A stretch of DNA of 39,375 nucleotides from Candidatus Terraquivivens tikiterensis (GCA_003056285.1 NDWU01000016.1:1-39375), one strand, 5' to 3'; counted from the first letter of the stretch, positions 3,534 to 37,842 are shown. Notes: generated from the sequence alone by a model not told the origin. Numbers and translations are program-made.

Positions 3534-4761
3534 AGGCCTAATAGGCTGAAGGTTCTAGCGTTAAATAGGACGCTCTGCGAATACTTTAGGCTTGTAAAGT
3601 GGTATCTTGGCTTCAGCTCAAAATCTAAGACGTTTCTCCATGAAAACGGTTATGAAAAATGCCAAGCGACTCTTCAACCTGAACACCGCTTTAATTCAGA
3701 CAGCAAGGGACAAGGCTGTTGAGATACTGAAAAGCTTTGAGGAAAACCGAAAGGAGAACAACATTTTGAGGCTTAAGCGTATATCCATACGCTTTGACAA
3801 GAGGTGCTACAGCTTCTCAAAGACGACGAACGTCCTAACACCATACTGGCTAACTTTAAGCCTAAACAGAAGGGAAAGGGTTAGCCTGCCAATAATCTTT
3901 GGAGAGAAGCAGAAACAGAGGATTGAAGAAACCTTCAGAGGAGAATGGAAGTTCACAACTGTTGAGATGGTCAAGCGGAACGGAGAGTGGTACGCCCATT
4001 TTGTCCTATCGAAGACCGTTGAACTACCAGACGAGCCTGAAACAGTAATAGCAATAGACAGAGGAGAGCATAACTTAGCCGTAGCAGTCGCCATCTCAAA
4101 GCGAAATCCAGAAAAGCCATTGAAGGGACAGTTCTGGAGGGGCTCTGAGATTAAAAGGATTAGAGGCTTGTACAGCCATATTAGGCGAAAGCTCCAAGAA
4201 AAGAAGCTTCTGAAAAAGGTTAAAGAGCTTAGCGGTAAAGAAAGGCGGAAGGTGAATCAGCAACTACACATCATCGCAAACCAGATTGTTGAATACGCTA
4301 AGAACTTCCCAAAACCGACAATAGTCATGGAAGACTTGAATGGGATAAGAAAGAACTTTAAGAAATCTAAGAACCTTAACAGGAGGTTCCACAGCCTTCC
4401 GTTCAGAAAGCTTCAGGCAATCGTAGAATACAAGGCAAACTTGGAGGGAATAGATGTCAGCTACCTCCCAAAGAAGGAGGTAAAGGACACATCGAAAACC
4501 TGCCACAGATGTGGGCATGTTGCCCAAGTTAAAGGAAGAGTATATAAGTGCACAAACTGCGGAATGGAATACGACCGAGACCTAAACGCGTGCATAAATA
4601 TAGCCCATAGGGTAATGAGCTCTATGGGATGGCGGAGCCGTGAGCCCCGCGAACCAGCAGATAAGGAGATAGGCGTAAAGCCTACTCTAAACGCTGGAAG
4701 CTCCCGACTTCAGTCGTGGAGTAGCTCACATACCTACCCGCTATCCAAACGCTTGGGCTGA
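3534..4761 (+). pseudogene. tnpB: TnpB, RNA-guided nuclease, catalytic core intact but 5' end frameshifted
   Basis: The core is well preserved: RuvC-I ETVIAIDRGEHNLAVAVA, RuvC-II TIVMEDLNGIRKNF with the catalytic Glu, a zinc ribbon CHRCGHV...CTNCGMEY, and RuvC-III DRDLNACINIA with the catalytic Asp. The N-terminus is in another frame: LNRTLCEYFRLVKWYLGFSS continues to HENGYE, and the frame changes in a run of five A at 3655-3659, where four would restore NAKRLFNLNTALIQ. The segment before 3540 seems to need a further shift. The frame also has no stop inside the element and ends in HEPN sequence at 4761. A start at TTG 3607 or ATG 3637 would give a protein lacking the N-terminal strand. Confidence 0.85.
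4600..4731 (+). ncRNA. Candidate omega-RNA / right end of TnpB element
   Basis: In TnpB elements the guide RNA scaffold comes from the 3' end of tnpB plus the right end, with the guide taken from flanking DNA. Here this region overlaps the tnpB 3' end and finishes in the hairpin CTCC-c-GACT-tc-AGTC-gt-GGAG at 4709-4729. Bases after 4731 (HEPN gene, ACCTACCCGCTATCC) would form the guide. This is inferred from family architecture. Confidence 0.5.
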
Positions 4762-4848
4762 AGGTATACCCCCGGAATACTACACAGAAAAAGATGCAGA
4801 GTGCGCGGTAAGAAGTGCTGAAAAGATTATTGAATGGGTAGAGGGTTC

Positions 4849-5214
4849 ATGGAGATTATTGAGCGGAGAAAAAAGGAAAGAACAAGAATAATAGAAGAGG
4901 CTAGAGAGTGGGTCTCAACACTAGGCTTCAGGTTGACCGTGATACTAATAGGCTCATATGCTAGAGGAGACTTTAACCTCTGGAGCGACGTAGACATACT
5001 TTTAGTCTCAGACGTATTCCAAGGAAACCCTCTGAATAGGTTAAAAATGGTTAACCCGCCCCCTGGTTACGAGGTAATACCAGTAAACACGTACGAATTC
5101 TTAGAAAATATGAGAAAAAAGAACGTTCTTATCCAAGAAGCTTCCAAGCATGGAATAATCTTAAGAGATGACCTAAACTTAGCAAAACATCTCAAGAAAA
5201 CAGAAGAACAGTGA
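4849..5214 (+). CDS. MNT-type nucleotidyltransferase antitoxin
   Basis: This 121-residue protein has the minimal nucleotidyltransferase signature GSYARGDFNLWSDVDILLV (GSx10DxD) at about residues 30-48. MNT proteins pair with HEPN toxins and neutralise them, in studied cases by modifying the toxin with nucleotides. The ATG at 4849 has a GAGG Shine-Dalgarno about five bases upstream; an ATG at 4834 in frame is possible. The gene overlaps the 3' end of the HEPN reading frame (to 4891), the usual arrangement of a co-translated pair. As the HEPN gene is broken, this is probably an antitoxin left without its toxin. Confidence 0.88.
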   Translation: MEIIERRKKERTRIIEEAREWVSTLGFRLTVILIGSYARGDFNLWSDVDILLVSDVFQGNPLNRLKMVNPPPGYEVIPVNTYEFLENMRKKNVLIQEASKHGIILRDDLNLAKHLKKTEEQ

Positions 5215-8053: not shown

Positions 8054-8165
8054 TAGGGCGGCCCTGATACGCCTGCTTAGGCGGAGCCCCTACTGGTAGA
8101 GATGCCGGCACATAGGCCAGCAGGGCTCCATCTTTAAAGCCCGCTGGCTTAAGCCGTGGGTGGTT
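8054..8165 (+). ncRNA. Candidate orphan omega-RNA / right end without tnpB
   Basis: A GC-rich block holds a 7-bp stem GGAGCCC (8083-8089) with GGGCTCC (8123-8129) enclosing a CTGG/CCAG hairpin, then CCCGCTGGCTTAAGCCGTGGG (8140-8160), the same CCC-GGCT-loop-AGCC-gt-GGG shape as the right end of the TnpB element at 4709-4729. No tnpB frame is present upstream. It may be a solo relic or a stand-alone guide RNA; the adjacent downstream bases would be the 3' end of an MNT gene. Confidence 0.4.
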
Positions 8166-8599
8166 CATGGGTACCTCTTGGTTATTCTCCATCCATTGCT
8201 TTCAGGCCTAACTATGCCTTCCCTCTTAAACTCATCCAGCATTCGTTTAGCATCTTTGAAGAAACCATCGTCTACGATTAACGTTCCATACTCCACTATA
8301 TCGAGTACTAGCCCGTTCAGGTTTTTCAGGAACTGCATGAACTCCTCTGGATAGAATCCTATCGCCATTATTCCCTCGCATGGAAGCAGCGATGATAAAG
8401 AACGACGTTGGATTTCATCCTGCGGAAGGTTTTCGGCTACCACGCATAAGTCTACATCGCTCCCCTCGGTAAAATTCCCTTTAGAGTATGAACCAAATAG
8501 GATAACTGACCGTATGATGAGGCCAGCATTAACTAGACATTCAATATACTCCTTTACTCTCTGAAGAGCCTTCTTTTTCAAAAGTTCTTTATAGGACAT
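8165..8599 (-). CDS. MNT-type nucleotidyltransferase antitoxin
   Basis: This 144-residue protein starts MSYKELLKKKALQRVKEYIE and has the GSYSKGNFTEGSDVDLCVV motif (GSx10DxD) at about residues 38-56. It lies directly downstream of a HEPN gene and overlaps it by 11 bases, so the two are co-translated. The ATG at 8599 was chosen over upstream in-frame ATGs because these would read through the HEPN gene in another frame. This looks like an intact HEPN/MNT toxin-antitoxin module in which the MNT protein neutralises the HEPN RNase. Its 3' end abuts an omega-RNA-like block. Confidence 0.88.
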   Translation of the reverse strand: MSYKELLKKKALQRVKEYIECLVNAGLIIRSVILFGSYSKGNFTEGSDVDLCVVAENLPQDEIQRRSLSSLLPCEGIMAIGFYPEEFMQFLKNLNGLVLDIVEYGTLIVDDGFFKDAKRMLDEFKREGIVRPESNGWRITKRYP

Positions 8600-8975
8600 G
8601 TCTCCTTGCCCACTCGAGTATTTTCGTAGCCCTTTCAATGGCGTCTTTTGCTTGCTGCTCCGTATACTTATCCTTGGCAGGACCTGATGCAAACGCGTTC
8701 GCATATCTTGTAGGAATGTAGTATTGGTCGAGGATTTTGACATCATCTACGAAATTGCCGGCTTCCTCCATATGCTTGAGCAACTCAGCCAAGAGGTCAA
8801 CCAGGGAGTGAGTACGTCTTTCCATACCCAATTTCTGCAACACGGCCTTAAGGGCCAGCTCTGCTGCTTGCTGAGCGTTAAAGCAGACTTTGCTCCACCT
8901 TCCCCTCTCAAAAAGATCTTTCGCAGCTCCCAAAAAGTCTTCGGCATCCATCAACAAATCACGGGATCTATCCAT
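8589..8975 (-). CDS. HEPN-domain toxin
   Basis: This 128-residue protein starts MDRSRDLLMDAEDFLGAAKD and shows the HEPN four-helix pattern: RGRWSKVCFNAQQAAELALK, a THSLVDLL helix, and QYYIPTRYANAF near the C-terminus, followed by IERATKILEWARRH. These are the conserved blocks of the pfam05168-type HEPN partner of MNT proteins. The ATG at 8975 was preferred to one eight codons upstream because it fits family length. The YYIPTRY motif is the one interrupted in the paralogue at 3127-4891, which helps place the insertion there. Confidence 0.9.
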   Translation of the reverse strand: MDRSRDLLMDAEDFLGAAKDLFERGRWSKVCFNAQQAAELALKAVLQKLGMERRTHSLVDLLAELLKHMEEAGNFVDDVKILDQYYIPTRYANAFASGPAKDKYTEQQAKDAIERATKILEWARRHVL

Positions 8976-9094
8976 AGAAGATAGAATAAAGATTAGCAAT
9001 ATTAAAGCGGTACGCTATGTTGTTGGGTTTTATGCTATGCTGTTTTAAATACCGTTGGGGAATCGCTGGCATCCAGTCCTGCGCTAGGAACTCA

Positions 9095-12593: not shown

Positions 12594-12718
12594 TACTAAC
12601 GTGAAAGTATCTACGAATACCCTAGACATTTACATAAAAGGTGGGAAGGCCAGGTACATAACATAATACTTATCACGGGTTGCTGCTACGATGTTCTTTG
12701 GATGGTGAGGTGGTTGGG

Positions 12719-13198
12719 ATGACGTTTGATGAGTTAACGCTAGAAGAGGTTGTTAGGCGGTTACAGGAGGCTTCAAATGACCTTAAACAGACATTTGGGG
12801 ATGTCTTCGCCAGTTTGCTGCTCTTTGGGAGCTTTCCTAGGGGTGAGGCATCGAAGGAGAGCGACGTAGATGTGTTAGTTGTGCTAAGGGGCTTAGGAGA
12901 TTTGAGAGTTAGAGTAGAGATTTATAGCATCCTAGCGAGACACATTGGGAGGCCCCTTACCTTAATACTTGCTGACCTAGCCGACCTCATCAAGGAGGAC
13001 TTAGAGATAACCCCCTTACTGCTTAACTCACTATACGATGGAATTGTGATATATGATGAGAGTGGAGTACTTCAGAGATTGAAGACGAAGGTCGATATGC
13101 TAGTTAAGAAAGCCAACCTAGTAAGATATAGGACCCCTGATGGAAAATATGGCTGGAAGAGAGCTGATGGTAAACCCATTGAGGCCGTGGAAGTTTGA
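12719..13198 (+). CDS. MNT-type nucleotidyltransferase antitoxin
   Basis: This 159-residue protein starts MTFDELTLEEVVRRLQEASN and carries FGSFPRGEASKESDVDVLVV (GSx10DxD) near residues 34-53. The C-terminal part (YGWKRADGKPIEAVEV) is longer than in the two other MNT proteins here. It precedes a HEPN gene and overlaps it by four bases, so the gene order (MNT first) is the reverse of the other two pairs. The ATG at 12719 was chosen because the preceding TTG-GTG frame lacks family features. Likely the antitoxin of an intact pair. Confidence 0.87.
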   Translation: MTFDELTLEEVVRRLQEASNDLKQTFGDVFASLLLFGSFPRGEASKESDVDVLVVLRGLGDLRVRVEIYSILARHIGRPLTLILADLADLIKEDLEITPLLLNSLYDGIVIYDESGVLQRLKTKVDMLVKKANLVRYRTPDGKYGWKRADGKPIEAVEV

Positions 13199-13635
13199 GG
13201 CTCAACCCAAGTAATGAAGTATCATACAAAGCTAGACTCGCAGCGCAATATCTAATGGAGGCCCAAGAAGCTTTTAAGTGGGGGAACCATAGATTAGCGG
13301 TGGCCTCATCACAGCTCAGCGTCGAGAACTCAGCAAAAGCGGTCATCGCATTATTCAGAGCACCCAGCTGGAGCCATGACCCATCCCACGAGCTCTTAGA
13401 AGTCTCGTCGACACTGCCGCCTGACCTGAAGAAATTAGCCGAGGAGCTCGCAGACATAACAAGACAACTGGCAGCAGAGCATGGAAGAGCAACATACGGA
13501 GAGCCCTTCAGAGGCCTCACACCATGGGACTTATACGATGAGAGAAGCGCTTTTGAGACGCTTTCAAAAGCCAGAAGAGCAAAAGAGGTAATGAACCTGA
13601 TTCTCAGGAAGTTAGGTGTGTCATTGCAAGAATGA
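13195..13635 (+). CDS. HEPN-domain protein
   Basis: This 146-residue protein starts at a TTG within the stop codon of the MNT gene (TTGA overlap). It reads ARLAAQYLMEAQEAFKWGNH, then VASSQLSVENSAKAVIALFR, which matches the first two helices of HEPN domains, and RATYGEPFRGLTPWDLYDER toward the end. The C-terminal helix FETLSKARRAKEVMNLILR is also usual. It belongs to a HEPN subgroup different from the YYIPTRY type at 8589 and 3127. Translation is probably coupled to the MNT gene. Confidence 0.85.
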   Translation: MRLNPSNEVSYKARLAAQYLMEAQEAFKWGNHRLAVASSQLSVENSAKAVIALFRAPSWSHDPSHELLEVSSTLPPDLKKLAEELADITRQLAAEHGRATYGEPFRGLTPWDLYDERSAFETLSKARRAKEVMNLILRKLGVSLQE

Positions 13636-18655: not shown

Positions 18656-20911
18656 TTACTTCGGAGCACCGTAGTACCTTCCTTCCTGCACTGGTTTTTT
18701 CGGCCTGTATCGTAGGTACACTATTACGACCATGACGGCTAAGACCGCTGCAACGCCTGCGAGGGCCATCGCCTGCATCTGAATGGATCCTAAGGATCCC
18801 TTTACCGCATCGAGCTCTTCTTTTACACTGCTCAGCTCCTTCTGTGCCGCAGCCAGAGCTTCCTTGGTGGACTTCAGCTCCTCTTGCGTCTTGGTAAGCG
18901 AGTCTTCCGCATCCCTTAACTTAGACTCTAGAACAGAGTTCAACTTTTGCGCGTCAGCCAATTCGCTCCGTAGCCTATCCGCATCCTCCTCCAGCTTACT
19001 GACCTGCTGCTCCAGCTGAGCTATGGTCTTAGCGTCTATATTCTTGCTGGCTATAAAACCGTCAACGAAATCCGATAGGACGCTTACGGTGTAGAAGGCC
19101 TCCCAGGCATAATCGAAGGCTGAGACGAGCTGGGCTCCCAAGCCGGTGAATGAAAACCTATCAAAGTAGTTGTGCCTCTTGAACTCATCGACGGCTTTCG
19201 ATGCCATGCTATCGGCCCTGTCCAGGAGCGACCTTATGCCTTCAACGCCGTAAGGGTCGATGCCTGCCTTTTCCAATTTGTCGACGATCTCTGCACGGGT
19301 ATTGGCGTAGTATGAGAGAATCATCGCGACGACTGCCCTGTCGAGTGCATCCAAGTCGAAAGTGCTGAAGTAAGTCTTCATCGGATACATACCTACGAAC
19401 AGGCTCCTATCCTCCATTACAGGGAAGACGTTCGCGTATGCCATGACGGTATCGGTCCACGAGTATATCCACCTCGTCACGACCTCCATCCTGACCTTGC
19501 CGGGACCGACTATCCTAATATTCGTCTCGTCTATGTCGTCATGCGGATGGGCAAGGCCAAGCGTATGTCCAACCTCGTGCGTGACCGTAAACGTTAACCC
19601 TTCCTCCTTCACGGCCTCAAAAGATAGCCCAACGACAACCCCCCTCGGCTTTCCAGGGTCATCTTTCATGGGTATCGCCCTTCCAATAACGTACCTCTTG
19701 TCTACGTACATGCTCTTCTCTCCGACGAATACAAGAACTGGTATGTGCACGACGCCCTCTGGTGCCTTCTCTATCAGGTTAAGCTTCTCGGCTAACGTGA
19801 ACGCCTTATCAGAGTCGACGGTTATGTATTCGCCCCAATCGAATAGGGCCGTTCTAAGCTGTGGCGCGTCCCTCTTCATCCAGTAGTAGAAGTATCGGAA
19901 GGTGTAGAAGTTGTATGGCGCGAGCTTCCTGAGCGCATCCTCCATAAGCTCGACGGAAAGGTATCCCCTCACGACGTCCGAGCCTATTCCCCAGTCGGTC
20001 GCGTCCACCACGATCACGTCTATCAACGTGTTTACCCTGTACGTTGGGACGTACAGGAGGCTTTTAACAAACAAGGTATCGATAACCTCGTCAACGTACC
20101 TTGCCAGAAGCATGCGCTGCTGGGCAGCATCCTTGTATACCCAAACGGGCGGATAATCGTACGGCGGGTTCTTGAGCCCCACGTAGTTTCCGTAGGGGTT
20201 TGGTATGGCGCATATGTCTATTACCACTTGCCTGCCGGTCCACATGCCGCCGTACATATTCATCCCAACAATCCCTAGCAAGTTGTGCTGCTCCGGGGTC
20301 CTACCGTACAGGTAGTAGATGGGGATGTATCCGTCGGTGAACCTGTTCCCGCACATGAAGTATATGTTATACCCATTAGAAATTTCGGGCATGTACCGCT
20401 CCGTATAGTAAGCAAGCTGTTGGAGCACGTAATCTATTCTGGTTAGGCCTTGATACAAATTGTACACAAAATCCGCTCCAAACACTTCTGCAACGTATTG
20501 CTTATACCTCTGTAGGCTGCGTCCGAGCTCGCCAGGTATATATCCGGCCGGCGTTGTGAATGAACGGAGGTAGTCATCGACAAAACTTGAGGTCATCCTT
20601 GCAGGAGCCGTCACGACAGAGAGCTTTACGTCAAACTTTGCGACGGGGATGGGCTCGTCTAGGTATATGCCAGCATAGGACGTTGCCTCCTTCCTAACGA
20701 GGCCGGCGAGTATGCTGGCCAGCTCGTTTTCCGATCCGACCCCAAAGTCGCTCGGCTGGATTCCGACCAATACTACGTTAACGTCCAGTTGTGCTGAAAG
20801 CGGAAGCTGCACGGCGTCGGCCTTCTGCTCCGCCCGAGCCGCCAAGAACAACGAGGGTGTGACGAGTAGGGCCAAGCAGAGCAATACGACGTACAGATTC
20901 GAACGCTTCAT
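18656..20911 (-). CDS. Surface-anchored metzincin-type metalloprotease
   Basis: This 751-residue protein has an N-terminal signal peptide (LYVVLLCLALLVTPSLFLAA), an extended N-terminal region, and the zinc motif THEVGHTLGLAHPHDD at about residues 444-459, which is the HExxHxxGxxH of metzincins. A Met-turn (DTVMAY) follows 30 residues later. A long heptad-rich coiled coil (about residues 630-712) leads to a C-terminal membrane helix, MALAGVAAVLAVMVVIVYLR, and a short basic tail. The protease therefore sits outside the cell on a stalk. A TATA-like AGTTTAAATAC is centred about 28 bases upstream of ATG 20911. The family is unusual and not confidently assigned to a MEROPS group. Confidence 0.85.
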   Translation of the reverse strand: MKRSNLYVVLLCLALLVTPSLFLAARAEQKADAVQLPLSAQLDVNVVLVGIQPSDFGVGSENELASILAGLVRKEATSYAGIYLDEPIPVAKFDVKLSVVTAPARMTSSFVDDYLRSFTTPAGYIPGELGRSLQRYKQYVAEVFGADFVYNLYQGLTRIDYVLQQLAYYTERYMPEISNGYNIYFMCGNRFTDGYIPIYYLYGRTPEQHNLLGIVGMNMYGGMWTGRQVVIDICAIPNPYGNYVGLKNPPYDYPPVWVYKDAAQQRMLLARYVDEVIDTLFVKSLLYVPTYRVNTLIDVIVVDATDWGIGSDVVRGYLSVELMEDALRKLAPYNFYTFRYFYYWMKRDAPQLRTALFDWGEYITVDSDKAFTLAEKLNLIEKAPEGVVHIPVLVFVGEKSMYVDKRYVIGRAIPMKDDPGKPRGVVVGLSFEAVKEEGLTFTVTHEVGHTLGLAHPHDDIDETNIRIVGPGKVRMEVVTRWIYSWTDTVMAYANVFPVMEDRSLFVGMYPMKTYFSTFDLDALDRAVVAMILSYYANTRAEIVDKLEKAGIDPYGVEGIRSLLDRADSMASKAVDEFKRHNYFDRFSFTGLGAQLVSAFDYAWEAFYTVSVLSDFVDGFIASKNIDAKTIAQLEQQVSKLEEDADRLRSELADAQKLNSVLESKLRDAEDSLTKTQEELKSTKEALAAAQKELSSVKEELDAVKGSLGSIQMQAMALAGVAAVLAVMVVIVYLRYRPKKPVQEGRYYGAPK

Positions 20912-32968: not shown

Positions 32969-34096
32969 TCATGTTGCGTACCTGGCCGCCCACTCCTCTA
33001 ACTTCTTTAGGTTCTCCAGAATTATCGATGACTTCCTCTTGCTAATAACCTCTAGGAAATCTTGCATTTCTATCATCCTGGGCTCGGTCTTTTCAGGACC
33101 CCCCTCCTCGAAGAACTCCCTGGCAACCTTTAGCTGAACCTCCATGCAGATGTCGTGGATGTCGGCTGCCGAATACCCCTCTGTCATCGTTGCAAGCTGC
33201 CATGTATCGACTGACTGGCCGAGCCTAAGGTCTTTGGTGTAGTAGGAAAACAAGGCGGCCCTTGCGTTAAGGTTCGGCAGCGGAACGTATATCCTCTTCT
33301 GGAAGCGTCTTATGAAGGGCTCGTCAAGCATCCAAGGTTTGTTCGTCGCTCCTATCACGTAAAGGTACTCTCTCCTGCCCTTCTCTGTCAGGCTGTCCAT
33401 CTCCTTCAGTAGCTGGTTCCTAGCCCTGGCCTCGCCACCCACCTCAACGTACCTAACGGAAGTCAGCGAATCTATCTCGTCGATAAAGATTATGGCAGAC
33501 CCCTGTTTTTTGCATGCGGCCCTAGCTACCGCGAAGAGTTGGGCTATGTTCTTCTCAGACTCCCCCAACCACTTAGACATGACTGTGGCTGCATCCACGT
33601 AGAAGAATGCGGCATCTATCTCGTTGGCGACGGCAGCTCCTATGAGCGTCTTGCCGCAGCCAGGCGGGCCAAACAACAGTATGCCGGTAGGCCAGCCCAA
33701 CGGGAATAGCTCCGGCCTCATCTTCGGGTACACTATGCTTTCCCTTATAGCCCTTTTTGCCTCCTCTATCCCTATTATATCCTCCCAGTTGACCCTGGGC
33801 CTCTCCCTGAGTATCCACTCTCCACCCTCTTCGGCACCAGCCTTAGCATCGCCCTCAGAAACCATGACCCTCTTTGCATCTATTAATTGGATCCTTCTTT
33901 GGTATTCACGGACCTTCTCAAGGTAAACGGAGCGTATCGCCTCGTCGTCAGCCATGAGGTAAAGCTTCGTTAGGATATCTATAGCCTCCTTGTACTTTAC
34001 GTAAGCCTTCTCCTTTGCGCCTATCCTATCCAGGTAGACTGCCTCTTTGGCCTTCTCGGCCGCCATCCTTTCGAGCTCGTTGAACATGCCGAGCAT
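32969..34096 (-). CDS. cdvC: CdvC / Vps4-like AAA ATPase with MIT domain
   Basis: This 375-residue protein has an N-terminal MIT three-helix domain (residues 5-70, AEKAKEAVYLDRIGAKEKAY) and a Vps4-type AAA module: Walker A GPPGCGKT at 143-150, Walker B IIFIDEID, the ATNKP sensor region and an Arg finger in FIRRFQKRIYVP. CdvC remodels ESCRT-III filaments during division, docking through its MIT domain onto the MIM2 motif of CdvB. The ATG at 34096 was chosen because residues upstream lack MIT homology; ATG 34087 is equally possible. A TATA box near 34213 gives a leader of about 90 bases. Confidence 0.92.
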   Translation of the reverse strand: MLGMFNELERMAAEKAKEAVYLDRIGAKEKAYVKYKEAIDILTKLYLMADDEAIRSVYLEKVREYQRRIQLIDAKRVMVSEGDAKAGAEEGGEWILRERPRVNWEDIIGIEEAKRAIRESIVYPKMRPELFPLGWPTGILLFGPPGCGKTLIGAAVANEIDAAFFYVDAATVMSKWLGESEKNIAQLFAVARAACKKQGSAIIFIDEIDSLTSVRYVEVGGEARARNQLLKEMDSLTEKGRREYLYVIGATNKPWMLDEPFIRRFQKRIYVPLPNLNARAALFSYYTKDLRLGQSVDTWQLATMTEGYSAADIHDICMEVQLKVAREFFEEGGPEKTEPRMIEMQDFLEVISKRKSSIILENLKKLEEWAARYAT

Positions 34097-34205: not shown

Positions 34206-34220
34206 CAATTTATATATGGT
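34206..34220. promoter_or_regulatory. Bidirectional TATA box between cdvC and its divergent neighbour
   Basis: ATTTATATATGG is close to palindromic. On the plus strand its centre is about 29 bases from GTG 34242, giving a leaderless transcript; on the minus strand it would place the cdvC transcript start near 34187. Confidence 0.6.
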
Positions 34221-34241: not shown

Positions 34242-35582
34242 GTGGTAGTAGAGCAATACAGATTAATCAAACGCCGGCTTAAGCTCAGGCGTAGCCCGGT
34301 ACGTAAGGGACGTGCGGCCCCAGGCTTTGAAAAGAAGTACCAAAAAGAAGGCCTAAATTTCCTGTACAAGCTCTCTGCTCTGGCCTTCCTGCTCAGCTTT
34401 AACAAGTACCCCTCGCTCAGGGTAAAGAATACAGCACCGGCGCTCTCGAACCTATTGAGGGTTTACGAGGGCATGCTACGAACCCTATCCAGCCGTCCCT
34501 TTTGCCTAGATTACGAGAGGCTTCTTGGGCTTGGCTACATGAAACGGAAGCACTGGGTATACGCTGCATACATAAGCCTCATAAGCTCCCTACCAGTCCT
34601 TCACAAGATCAGCTCCTCCAGCAAGGTGATGCGCTCGGCTATAGCGAAGACATCTTTCGGAACAAGCGTAAAGCTACTCGACAACCTAAACGACAACGTC
34701 CACGACCTGGATGCAGCCCTCGCATCCTTAAGGAACCTGCTATCCGCATACACGACGGGCGTATACGAGCCTAACTTGGACTGTGAGTATGAGAGCGTAG
34801 CCAAGGCTGAGAACTCTGCGCTGGAGATCGGGGCTTGGATATACAGGATGCTCAGCATGGGCGGGAGCGGGCCTAACCGTATGTTTGAGCTGTACGTTAA
34901 AGACGTCAGGAAGCTGATAATGGGGCAAGTAGATTCCTTATCGCACAAGGACGAAAAGAGGGACGGACCCCCCACGATGGCCGATTACATGCAGTACGTA
35001 CTGGAGAAGAACATAGGGGACGTTTGGTTTGATATAGACCTATGCTTCTTTGAGAAAGGGTTAGGTAGCCTAACGCCCGACGACGTCCGGTCCCTCATGC
35101 TGGTTAAGCAAGGCGTCTCGCTCGTGTTCAAGGCTGCAGGCATGTACGACGACGTCGTGGACGCTTACGAGGACATAATGTCGAACTCTATAAACAGCAC
35201 AATACTCCTAGCCATAGAAAGGGGCCTCTTACCGTACGATAGCCTTCGTAGAGTTAAACCGGCGGAGACCTTTAGGACTCTCTCAAAGCTTGGGATTTTT
35301 GACGATATAATCAAGCTGGGCGACGCGATGCACGTAACTGGCTTGAGCATGATAAGGAGTGGTCTGAAAGGTAGGATCGGTCAGCTTGTGGACGGCGACG
35401 CTCTCCTGAGCGTATGCAACTTCATCAGGCTCTTCTCGATAAGGAAGTACCTTATAAGGGAAAAGAGGCTCCGTCAATCGCTGGCATTCATAAGACCGCC
35501 CAACCCATCAGTTAATTTGCCGGAAGACCTAGAGCTGTTGTGGAATGAGCTGAGGGGGCAGATCGTAAAAGGATACTGCTAG
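34242..35582 (+). CDS. Unknown protein with isoprenoid-synthase-like Asp-rich motifs
   Basis: This 446-residue, mostly helical protein starts at GTG 34242. The central part reads LLDNLNDNVHDLDAALASLR and, later, FKAAGMYDDVVDAYEDIMSN followed by SINSTILLAIERG, spaced about 160 residues apart. Two Asp-rich helices with a TMADYMQYVLEKNIGDVWFD helix between recall class I isoprenoid synthases (prenyl or terpene synthase fold), where Asp residues bind Mg and diphosphate. The match is by eye and weak; the N-terminal 90 residues look unrelated and basic. It diverges from cdvC through a shared TATA element and is followed by a V4R-like gene. Confidence 0.7.
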   Translation: MVVEQYRLIKRRLKLRRSPVRKGRAAPGFEKKYQKEGLNFLYKLSALAFLLSFNKYPSLRVKNTAPALSNLLRVYEGMLRTLSSRPFCLDYERLLGLGYMKRKHWVYAAYISLISSLPVLHKISSSSKVMRSAIAKTSFGTSVKLLDNLNDNVHDLDAALASLRNLLSAYTTGVYEPNLDCEYESVAKAENSALEIGAWIYRMLSMGGSGPNRMFELYVKDVRKLIMGQVDSLSHKDEKRDGPPTMADYMQYVLEKNIGDVWFDIDLCFFEKGLGSLTPDDVRSLMLVKQGVSLVFKAAGMYDDVVDAYEDIMSNSINSTILLAIERGLLPYDSLRRVKPAETFRTLSKLGIFDDIIKLGDAMHVTGLSMIRSGLKGRIGQLVDGDALLSVCNFIRLFSIRKYLIREKRLRQSLAFIRPPNPSVNLPEDLELLWNELRGQIVKGYC

Positions 35583-35648
35583 AAAACCGTTTATACACGA
35601 TTCTTATAAAAGGAATAAATCCTACCGAACCCCTTTATTTTTTTAGAA

Positions 35649-37091
35649 ATGAAAAAATTTTTGACAGGGCACGAAGTATTTGACGAGATAGCTGACATTT
35701 ACTACGGCTCCGCGCTGCTCGTCTTGGATAGCGGGTACGGCGAGGCGCTACGCTTCCTCATGAACCTGATGAAAAGACAGGGAGCCGTGAGGCTGGTGCT
35801 CGGGGAGGGGCCTTCGTCGAGGGAGGGCCTCATTTTTATAAAGCCGTCGACACTGAATGACATAAGCATAGCCGTTAACGACCTCAGGAGGAGGAACCAA
35901 CGGAGCGTACTGATCCATGAATACCTACCAGACCTTTTGATAAAGTACGAGCACGACCCCATCATGAAGTTGCTGGAAACATGGAAGCATGAGATACGTA
36001 ACAACATGACCGTAGAGTTTTACCTGCTTCCGAAGGGTGCATTTCCTGAGATGGAGAAGAAGATTTTAGCGATTTTTGACGGAGGCCTGGAGGTCAGATT
36101 GTCGCAATCAAAAAGGTTAACCTTTTACGATTTCATACCAATCAGGTGCTGCCGTCCAGAGTGGAACCTAAGGCCCGTGAGATACGAGTACAGGGATGAC
36201 AGGATCCTGATGGAATGGCAAGGCGAGATGACTGATAGGTTGATGCTGCCCTTGCCTTGGTTGGTGGACGAAAGAATAAGGTATTACATGGAGAATCTTG
36301 CGCGCTTAAAATTAAGAGTAAATCGTAAGGATCTGACGGAGCACTTTACGGAGTACTTGTGGTTTTTCTCCTATTTCAACGATAAGACCCTTCTGGATGT
36401 GAGGCTGCTCTTTCCTGAGATATTCGAAGATTTGTTGAAGAAGATAGCCATATGGGAATCGCAAGGATACGTAAGCGTCTCCGAGGTCGAGGAGAAACCG
36501 GTTAAGTACGTCGAACCCGTAAAGAAGGGGCGGTTGAGCTTTAAGACGAGGCTTGCCTTGGGCATGCCCCCAAGGCTTTTCTTCAACTTTCTGGGCATAA
36601 AGGAGGGCGCAAGGGTTCCGGGTAGCGTCTACAACATAGAAAGGAATGCAATGTTCGAGCTCATAAACATCCTGGTAGGCGGCGCGGAGACGGAGCGCAG
36701 GGAGGTGGTTGAGAGGTTGCTTAGGATCAGGGAGGATTTCCACCAGCTGATTGGTAGGCAAAGGGCTTTGGAGGCGATTCGAGAAATAGGCGAGAACCCT
36801 CTTGAGAGGCTCGACATGAAATACCTGCCGAAAATAATGGCGCTAACGCTCTACTTCGGGTTTAGGTTGAAATGCACCGTGGAAACCGTCAGCGGCAACG
36901 TTTTCAGGATAAGGGTTCCGGACTGCTTCCTTTGCATGGATACTGTATCCGAAATTCCCATATGCGCCCCAATTACTGGAGCCCTTTCTGGGACCGCATC
37001 CGTCGTGTTCAAGGAGCCAGTACGCACGAAGGAGATAAAGTGCAAAGCTACTGGGCATGATGAGTGCGTATTCGAGCTCAAGGTCGGTTAA
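35649..37091 (+). CDS. V4R-domain protein with RecA/KaiC-like N-terminus
   Basis: This 480-residue protein has an N-terminal part (residues 1-150) that resembles a degenerate RecA/KaiC-like fold (SALLVLDSGYGEALRFLMNL, SVLIHEYLPDLLIKYEHDPI, NNMTVEFYLLPKGAFP) without a visible Walker A. A winged-helix-like middle follows (SYFNDKTLLDVRLLFPEIFE). The C-terminus is V4R-like, with CFLCMDTV, PICAPITGAL and CKATGHDECVFELKV, the Cys-containing pattern that in V4R/XylR-type domains senses ligands or metals. It may be a regulator. It follows the previous gene by 66 bases, including a TTATAAAA box, and overlaps the convergent HAD gene by 14 bases. Confidence 0.65.
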   Translation: MKKFLTGHEVFDEIADIYYGSALLVLDSGYGEALRFLMNLMKRQGAVRLVLGEGPSSREGLIFIKPSTLNDISIAVNDLRRRNQRSVLIHEYLPDLLIKYEHDPIMKLLETWKHEIRNNMTVEFYLLPKGAFPEMEKKILAIFDGGLEVRLSQSKRLTFYDFIPIRCCRPEWNLRPVRYEYRDDRILMEWQGEMTDRLMLPLPWLVDERIRYYMENLARLKLRVNRKDLTEHFTEYLWFFSYFNDKTLLDVRLLFPEIFEDLLKKIAIWESQGYVSVSEVEEKPVKYVEPVKKGRLSFKTRLALGMPPRLFFNFLGIKEGARVPGSVYNIERNAMFELINILVGGAETERREVVERLLRIREDFHQLIGRQRALEAIREIGENPLERLDMKYLPKIMALTLYFGFRLKCTVETVSGNVFRIRVPDCFLCMDTVSEIPICAPITGALSGTASVVFKEPVRTKEIKCKATGHDECVFELKVG

Positions 37092-37842
37092 TGCCGATAA
37101 CGTTTAGGACGTCCATAAGGTTCTTTGACTTGACGACGTACAGGGCGTTATTCCTCACGTACCTTTTTGCAAGCCAAAGCCTCAGGCGTAGTTTTGCTTT
37201 TTCAAAAGCTCCCAACCTCATCCTAAGGAGCTCTCTTTCCAAGCATCCCGAATCAAACATTATGCTCGTACCGACGAGTTTGAAGAGAGGTACGTTGGAA
37301 GCGTCATCGCCGACGGCGGCACACTCGCTAAGCCGGATGCCGTAGCTCGATGCTATCTCGGATAGGATCCTGCCCTTGTTCTCAAGGTCTACTATGGGCT
37401 GCTCTATGTTAACGAAAACCCCGTTCTCGATCCTCACACGCGTCCCAACAAAAAAATCCAGCCCGATCCTCTCCCCCAGGATGTCAAGAAAATACTGGGA
37501 TGCACCGGTGCTTATCGTTCCCACGATTAAGCCATTGCTCTTCATAGACCTTACTGCCTCCTCTGCACCCTGCATCAAAGGAACTTGCATGAGCAACTCC
37601 CTAATCTCTCCCTCCTTTGTACCTAGGAATAGCCTTAGCGCTCTATCCATAGCCTGCCTAAAGCTAATCGCCGAGGTCAATAGGTCTTTGTATACCGATC
37701 TAAGCTCTTCACCAAAGCCAAGACGTTCTGCAACGAATATGGATGTGTAGCCGTCAACCAAAACGCCGTCACAATCCAGGACGACGAGCTTAGGCGAGCC
37801 CCTTCTTGACATGGTGTTCACGTCCGCATAGGTTCGTAGCAT
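37078..37842 (-). CDS. HAD-family phosphatase (PSPase-like)
   Basis: This 254-residue protein has the HAD nucleophile motif VVLDCDGVLVDGYTS near residue 19, a cap region (MDRALRLFLGTKEGEIRELL), the second motif VGTISTGASQYFLD and the acidic motif AAVGDDASNVPLFKLVG. It resembles phosphoserine-phosphatase-like HAD enzymes of archaea; the substrate is not deducible. The ATG at 37842 is directly preceded by the TGA of the VanZ-like gene (TGAATG), so the two are translationally coupled. Its 3' end overlaps the convergent V4R-like gene. Confidence 0.87.
   Translation of the reverse strand: MLRTYADVNTMSRRGSPKLVVLDCDGVLVDGYTSIFVAERLGFGEELRSVYKDLLTSAISFRQAMDRALRLFLGTKEGEIRELLMQVPLMQGAEEAVRSMKSNGLIVGTISTGASQYFLDILGERIGLDFFVGTRVRIENGVFVNIEQPIVDLENKGRILSEIASSYGIRLSECAAVGDDASNVPLFKLVGTSIMFDSGCLERELLRMRLGAFEKAKLRLRLWLAKRYVRNNALYVVKSKNLMDVLNVIGINRP

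Follow-up and report, generated by a model that had tools for sequence, protein, structure and literature searches.

Genes and promoters between cdvC and P1

The window analysed here, 39,375 nucleotides in length, is an entire contig (C9) from a 1.54 Mb archaeal genome that is 97% complete. It belongs to Candidatus Terraquivivens, a hot-spring archaeon that corresponds to the genus AigG7; the family has been described together with Wolframiiraptor, within the Caldarchaeales (PMC9246946). The paper on Terraquivivens that a literature search yielded mentions neither terpenes, isoprenoids and quinones nor Cdv. We studied two plus-strand open reading frames, termed P1 and P2, that are divergent from cdvC. 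The genes and promoter elements of this region are as follows (window coordinates):

32969-34087, minus strand: cdvC, encoding a Vps4-like AAA ATPase of 372 aa (corrected start); a neighbour outside the P1-P2 module
34121-34112, minus strand: TTATATTAGC, a TATA-like box that precedes the cdvC ATG (34087) by about 29 nt and is conserved in six species
34209-34219, plus strand: TATA box of P1, TTTATATATGG, 28 nt before the GTG of P1 and kept in the closest species alone
34242-35582, plus strand: P1, 446 aa with a GTG start, a class I isoprenoid/terpenoid synthase-like protein according to an AlphaFold2 model and Foldseek
35649-37091, plus strand: P2, 480 aa, a protein with a pseudo-KaiC domain, a probable winged helix and a V4R domain
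37078-37842, minus strand: SerB-like HAD-IB phosphatase (Pfam/NCBIfam), a conserved neighbour of P1-P2

cdvB is convergent with cdvC and lies on the side of cdvC that faces away from P1. P1 and P2 are conserved genes and not chance open reading frames, since their homologues share invariant residues (24 alignment columns in 27 P1 sequences, 14 residues in 22 P2 sequences). Both frames had been proposed in an earlier sequence-only reading of this DNA, and they proved to be real at these coordinates, as did the divergent orientation of P1 and cdvC.

The best NCBIfam match of the cdvC product is CdvC (1e-141), which remains under the equivalog cut-off. In five relatives in-frame stop codons precede a conserved methionine, and all six CdvC sequences align from that residue. 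We therefore place the cdvC start at the ATG at 34087 and not upstream of it; the sequence-only reading seems to have set it too far upstream. That reading had also proposed that a single near-palindromic TATA box drives both cdvC and P1. An alignment of the intergenic region of six Terraquivivens species revealed that the P1 box is common only to G002, a species with 73% identity, and is absent in the other four, whereas the box near the cdvC ATG is conserved throughout. Hence, as judged from these alignments, P1 and cdvC are probably driven from separate promoters, and the shared bidirectional TATA box was dropped. A leaderless P1 transcript, suggested in the same reading, is consistent with the spacing between the P1 box and the GTG. 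A bacterial promoter scan of the region was uninformative, the host being an archaeon.

Elsewhere in the window, judging from the sequence alone, we observed three putative pairs of nucleotidyltransferase (MNT)/HEPN-like frames resembling archaeal toxin-antitoxin modules (4834-5214, 8165-8999 and 12680-13635), a TnpB/OrfB-like transposon nuclease frame (3607-4761) with a second fragment close to the contig end (38894-39214), and a minus-strand frame of 751 aa (18656-20911). The latter, which resembles a secreted metalloprotease with an HExxH-type motif, contains a long coiled coil and has a membrane helix at its C-terminus.

The P1-P2 pair and cell division genes

The pair had been suggested to form a new kind of Cdv accessory system. 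Gene-neighbourhood conservation next to cdvC was looked for, and none was found outside Terraquivivens. Within this genus, and in this genus only, P1-P2 lie divergent beside cdvC in six of six genomes. The adjacency of cdvB and cdvC is widespread in the order, whereas Terraquivivens alone has P1-P2 next to it. The cdvC gene of G024 (1.367 Mb) is separated from P1 (0.175 Mb) by about 1.2 Mb, and in G027, G031 and G037 the pair and cdvC are on different contigs. In Caldarchaeum and HR01, P1-P2 are either on a contig other than that of cdvC or some 1.2 Mb away from it. Sister genera possess cdvBC without P1-P2 and carry different genes upstream of cdvC. With respect to the Cdv (archaeal ESCRT) division system, the pair is thus a chromosomal neighbour in Terraquivivens, and conserved linkage was absent outside the genus.

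If P1-P2 were a Cdv accessory system whose expression is coupled to that of cdvC through a common promoter, the divergent arrangement in all six Terraquivivens genomes would be accounted for, and a CdvB-like gene some 5 kb from the pair in one other genus would fit as well. Nevertheless, we regard this explanation as highly improbable. The pair lies away from cdvC in all other lineages, cdvBC occurs without the pair in sister genera, and cdvC has a conserved promoter-like box of its own while the proposed shared TATA box is not conserved. A Cdv accessory role for P1-P2 was rejected on this gene-order evidence. We conclude that the cdvC neighbourhood is a genus-specific arrangement, and we find no evidence here for a new cell division system. 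This removes a misleading lead, and the interest of the locus lies in archaeal lipid biology. Of the two points on which the proposal had been made to depend, proximity of homologues to cdv genes did not hold outside the genus, whereas an isoprenoid synthase fold of P1 was supported (see below).

The CdvB-like gene mentioned above belongs to genus g65 and was found on two contigs (L133:4192-4815, minus strand; L135:15385-16008, plus strand), with 31% identity and an E-value of 4e-25; it had no Pfam match. Its position near P1 is probably a chance linkage in a single lineage. Next to a Bathyarchaeal P1, a minus-strand gene (L075:8140-9711) encodes a PSII_BNR (YCF48) domain and shows a below-cut-off match to the CdvA coiled coil, probably also by chance and in this lineage alone.

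Predicted fold and active-site landmarks of P1

Sequence searches with P1 against Pfam and NCBIfam, and with P1 and its profile against the PDB sequences, yielded no significant match, be it to an isoprenoid synthase family or to any other. Weak matches that agree with an isoprenoid synthase came from single members, namely to Terpene_syn_C_2 (E 0.0096) and polyprenyl_synt (E 0.061) in Pfam and to a hexaprenyl-diphosphate synthase (0.016) in NCBIfam; further weak hits were to unrelated families. The value of 0.061 is the best that any P1 member achieved for the polyprenyl synthetase family PF00348, and the cut-off of this family was reached by none. P1 contains an LDN-x-x-D motif that we take to resemble the one in YtpB, a tetraprenyl-beta-curcumene synthase of the DUF2600 family (PF10776). 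This motif is the only likeness. No P1 member matches the profile, PF10776 was absent in 21 relatives, and membership in DUF2600 was rejected. Viral relatives of P1 were not found.

An AlphaFold2 model of P1, built from 27 homologues, is all-helical and of high confidence (pLDDT 85.3, pTM 0.86); the first ~35 residues are poorly conserved and predicted to be disordered. When the model was compared with the PDB using Foldseek, the top 50 matches were all class I terpene synthases or their close kin, among them a small number of class I prenyl synthase-like entries. The best match was 7e4n (E 6.3e-5, probability 1.00), with a TM score of 0.65 when normalised to the length of the target and 0.45 when normalised to that of the query. 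Since the PDB library contains helical proteins of all kinds, this search is an independent check on the fold. In its predicted structure P1 thus has the all-alpha class I isoprenoid synthase fold and resembles bacterial class I terpene synthases such as Sat1646 (7e4n), tolypothrichol synthase (9kgb) and selinadiene synthase (4okm).

In type I terpene synthases, helix D ends with a DDXX(X)D motif and helix H with an NSE triad, ND(L,I,V)XSXX(K,R)E (PMC8450962). A pyrophosphate sensor arginine lies about 46 residues upstream of the NSE triad at the helix-G break, and a conserved proline precedes DDXX(X)D by 21 residues (PMC8450962). We compared these landmarks with the P1 alignment and with the helices of the model, in which helix letters were assigned by order along the chain (all features on the plus strand):

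34680-34694: Asp-rich motif 1, D147-N148-x-N150-D151, at the C-terminal end of predicted helix D (residues 126-152)
34923-34928: G228-Q229, aligned to the polyprenyl synthase GQ motif (hhalign, not significant overall)
35007-35018: K256..G259, candidate pyrophosphate sensor at the predicted helix-G break (helices 246-256 and 259-274)
35148-35174: Asp-rich motif 2, D303-D304-V-x-D307-xxx-D311, at the C-terminal end of predicted helix H (residues 279-306), with the spacing of an NSE triad
35427-35447: R396-x-F398-xx-R401-K402 in a late helix (residues 385-407), with R396, F398 and R401 conserved in 27/27 sequences

The paired Asp-rich helices that the sequence-only reading had pointed out were recovered. 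Motif 1 is a DNxND variant of DDxx(X)D at the expected end of helix D, with D147, N148 and D151 present in all 27 sequences and N150 in 25 of them. Motif 2 follows the pattern DD(V/I/A)xDxxxD; D303, D304, D307 and D311 are invariant (27/27), and the NSE spacing is kept, but an Asp occupies the position of the NSE serine. Position 256 is a lysine in 25 and an arginine in two of the 27 sequences, followed by an invariant G259. In 22 of the 27 members this basic residue precedes D303 by 46-48 residues, exactly at the helix-G break. Asn318/Ser319, a further landmark, lie 7-8 residues past D311, compared to 8-9 residues in the literature. Within the GQ pair, Q229 is invariant (27/27) and G228 is found in 26 members.

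In variant form, P1 appears to have counterparts of three landmarks of the bacterial enzymes, namely an Asp-rich end of predicted helix D, an acidic, NSE-spaced end of predicted helix H and, 46-48 residues upstream of the latter motif in most members, a basic residue at the predicted helix-G break. It shows no significant sequence similarity to these enzymes and carries the DNxND and DDxxDxxxD variants. It also differs in the spacing of the proline, the invariant P118 lying 29 residues before motif 1 (28 in one member) and not 21. Its candidate sensor is a lysine instead of an arginine, and it is an archaeal protein with a V4R/KaiC partner. In trans-polyprenyl diphosphate synthases (PF00348), the two Asp-rich motifs, the GQ motif and the lysine are colinear with those of P1, although the hhalign alignment is not significant (probability 1.9%).

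P2, recurrent gene neighbours and the proposed pathway

The domains of P2, all on the plus strand, are:

35649-36248: N-terminal KaiC/RecA-like domain without Walker A motif (Foldseek to KaiC)
36339-36485: probable winged helix, residues 231-279, with three helices and a strand, based on secondary structure only
36906-37082: V4R domain (Pfam PF02830, E 1.1e-14) with invariant cysteines C426, C429, C439, C465 and C473

P2 had been read as a V4R-type protein with a RecA-like N-terminus, and this description was right. Roughly the first 200-plus residues match KaiC in the Foldseek search (E 2.6e-8, probability 1.00), and a Walker A motif (GK[ST] loop) was found in none of the 22 homologues. P2 thus shares the N-terminal fold of KaiC/RecA-family ATPases, in what is, on the structure comparison, a pseudo-ATPase-like domain. 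Residues 231-279 gave no family match, and their predicted secondary structure indicates a probable winged helix. The V4R domain scored 54.7 bits against a cut-off of 31, and PF02830 was detected in 21 of 22 P2 homologues. Its nearest solved relatives are MJ1460 (2osd) and, weakly, the phenol sensor MopR. With the V4R sensors MJ1460, MsvR and MopR, P2 has in common a C-terminal V4R domain with conserved cysteines. Compared to these, it adds the KaiC-like pseudo-ATPase and the probable winged helix, and its match to MsvR is far under the cut-off. In its domain make-up P2 thus resembles a receptor or regulator.

The set of genomes with P1 and the set with full-length P2 are identical, comprising 16 of the 398 genomes of the phylum and 7 genera. 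The chance of drawing identical sets is about 2e-12 even at the genus level, a figure that ignores tree structure. In these 16 genomes the two genes are always adjacent or one gene apart, in tandem or convergent. Homologues of P1 span Nitrososphaeria, Bathyarchaeia and Theionarchaea; some of this wider set of loci lie on contigs too short for an assessment of the pairing. The Theionarchaeal loci carry P1 followed by a MenA-like UbiA, with no P2 nearby.

Several neighbours recur. The HAD phosphatase adjoins P2 in other Terraquivivens and in the Nitrososphaeria bins L060-L065 (48-77% identical), and a HAD phosphatase also accompanies P1-P2 in Hecatella, genus g65 and Bathyarchaeia (different HAD subfamily). 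A UbiA prenyltransferase gene separates P1 from P2 in Caldarchaeum and HR01, where P2 also has a UbiE-like methyltransferase next to it; in L071 and L131 the gene between P1 and P2 encodes a geranylgeranyl reductase. In Terraquivivens the pair is adjoined by cdvC and the HAD gene, and UbiA, UbiE and the reductase are not alongside. KaiC-family ATPases also recur adjoining the pair (L049:8333-9127, with similar genes in L050-L052, L077, L078 and L133-L135), and these might form an assembly with P2 through its pseudo-KaiC domain. The recurrence of isoprenoid partners in separate lineages is the second main line of evidence and is independent of the P1 fold. Together with the structure prediction and the fold search, the UbiA, UbiE and geranylgeranyl reductase neighbours seen in several further lineages of archaea support the resemblance of P1 to class I isoprenoid synthases that had been noted from the sequence.

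The identity of the genes, the fold prediction, the conserved residues, the joint occurrence and the neighbourhoods were computed here, and at the level of predicted fold and context the isoprenoid assignment of P1 is well supported. We consider it probable that P1 represents a divergent archaeal family of class I isoprenoid/terpenoid synthases and P2 its ligand-sensing partner; from here on we infer catalysis, substrate, product and the roles of P2 and the HAD phosphatase. P1 would bind a prenyl diphosphate, probably of geranylgeranyl chain length or above, supplied by one of the two ordinary polyprenyl synthases of the genome. DNxND in helix D and DDxxDxxxD in helix H would hold the metal cluster and K256 would contact the diphosphate; ionisation of the substrate would then lead to an isoprenoid that is cyclised, condensed or rearranged in some other way. 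P2 may sense or carry the hydrophobic product or precursor via its Cys-rich V4R pocket and thereby regulate or assemble the pathway. Further conversion to a lipid or a quinone-like compound would fall to the HAD phosphatase at most loci and, in some lineages, to UbiA, the UbiE-like methyltransferase or geranylgeranyl reductase. Points against this explanation are the lack of a significant sequence match, the variant motifs, the proline spacing, the two canonical polyprenyl synthases already present and, in Terraquivivens itself, a neighbourhood of cdvC and HAD that has no UbiA, UbiE or reductase gene.

P1 might instead be a chain-elongating or head-to-head synthase of the polyprenyl or squalene/phytoene type that feeds the neighbouring UbiA, and not a cyclase. 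The GQ motif and the lysine that align with polyprenyl synthases would fit this, as would the UbiA neighbours, which require a prenyl diphosphate, and the fact that the SQS_PSY family is missing from all six Terraquivivens genomes (0/6). However, the top fold matches are terpene cyclases and not prenyltransferases, the genome has two canonical polyprenyl synthases besides P1, and Caldarchaeum carries both P1 and SQS_PSY; we therefore consider this alternative unlikely. P1 as a substitute for a missing squalene/phytoene synthase was likewise rejected, since Caldarchaeum has both and no clear complementarity was seen.

We also weighed whether P1 has kept the class I fold without an enzymatic role and, together with P2, senses prenyl diphosphates or lipids to control membrane genes or membrane state. 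The constant partner is indeed regulator-like in its three domains, the motifs of P1 are variants of the canonical ones, and cdvC is the neighbour of the pair in each of the six Terraquivivens genomes, where the previously suggested link between lipids and division would need such a sensor. Still, the acidic and basic positions of the predicted active site are kept without exception in the Nitrososphaeria, Bathyarchaeia and Theionarchaea, a pattern more in line with catalysis than with binding alone, and the Theionarchaeal loci combine P1 with UbiA in the absence of a nearby P2. A purely sensory P1 is thus rather improbable. As for a link between lipid or membrane state and division, a role in membranes or lipids is possible from the isoprenoid context, whereas a connection to division specifically is unsupported.

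Returning to P1 as a synthase with P2 as its partner, a more far-reaching version can be put forward only tentatively as a whole. P1 and P2 would found a terpene cyclase pathway confined to archaea, in which the pseudo-KaiC/V4R receptor reads the hydrophobic product of its own pathway and switches or scaffolds the cyclase, and in which, depending on the lineage, UbiA, methyltransferase, reductase or phosphatase would lead to an undescribed membrane isoprenoid or quinone. Archaeal membranes are built of isoprenoids. A family such as P1, whose active-site residues are conserved and whose sensor-like partner is constant, would indicate that a lipid, quinone or terpenoid product has so far gone unrecognised, and the pair gives the V4R domain in archaea a testable role. 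In a literature search we found no described class I terpene synthase or cyclase family for these archaeal lineages.

Paralogues of P2 were observed in the Caldarchaeum group (L053:8551-9957, L054:8682-10019 and L055:8036-9514). They are 22-26% identical to the P2 of the window and have no P1 nearby, suggesting that the pseudo-KaiC/V4R architecture may serve further partners.
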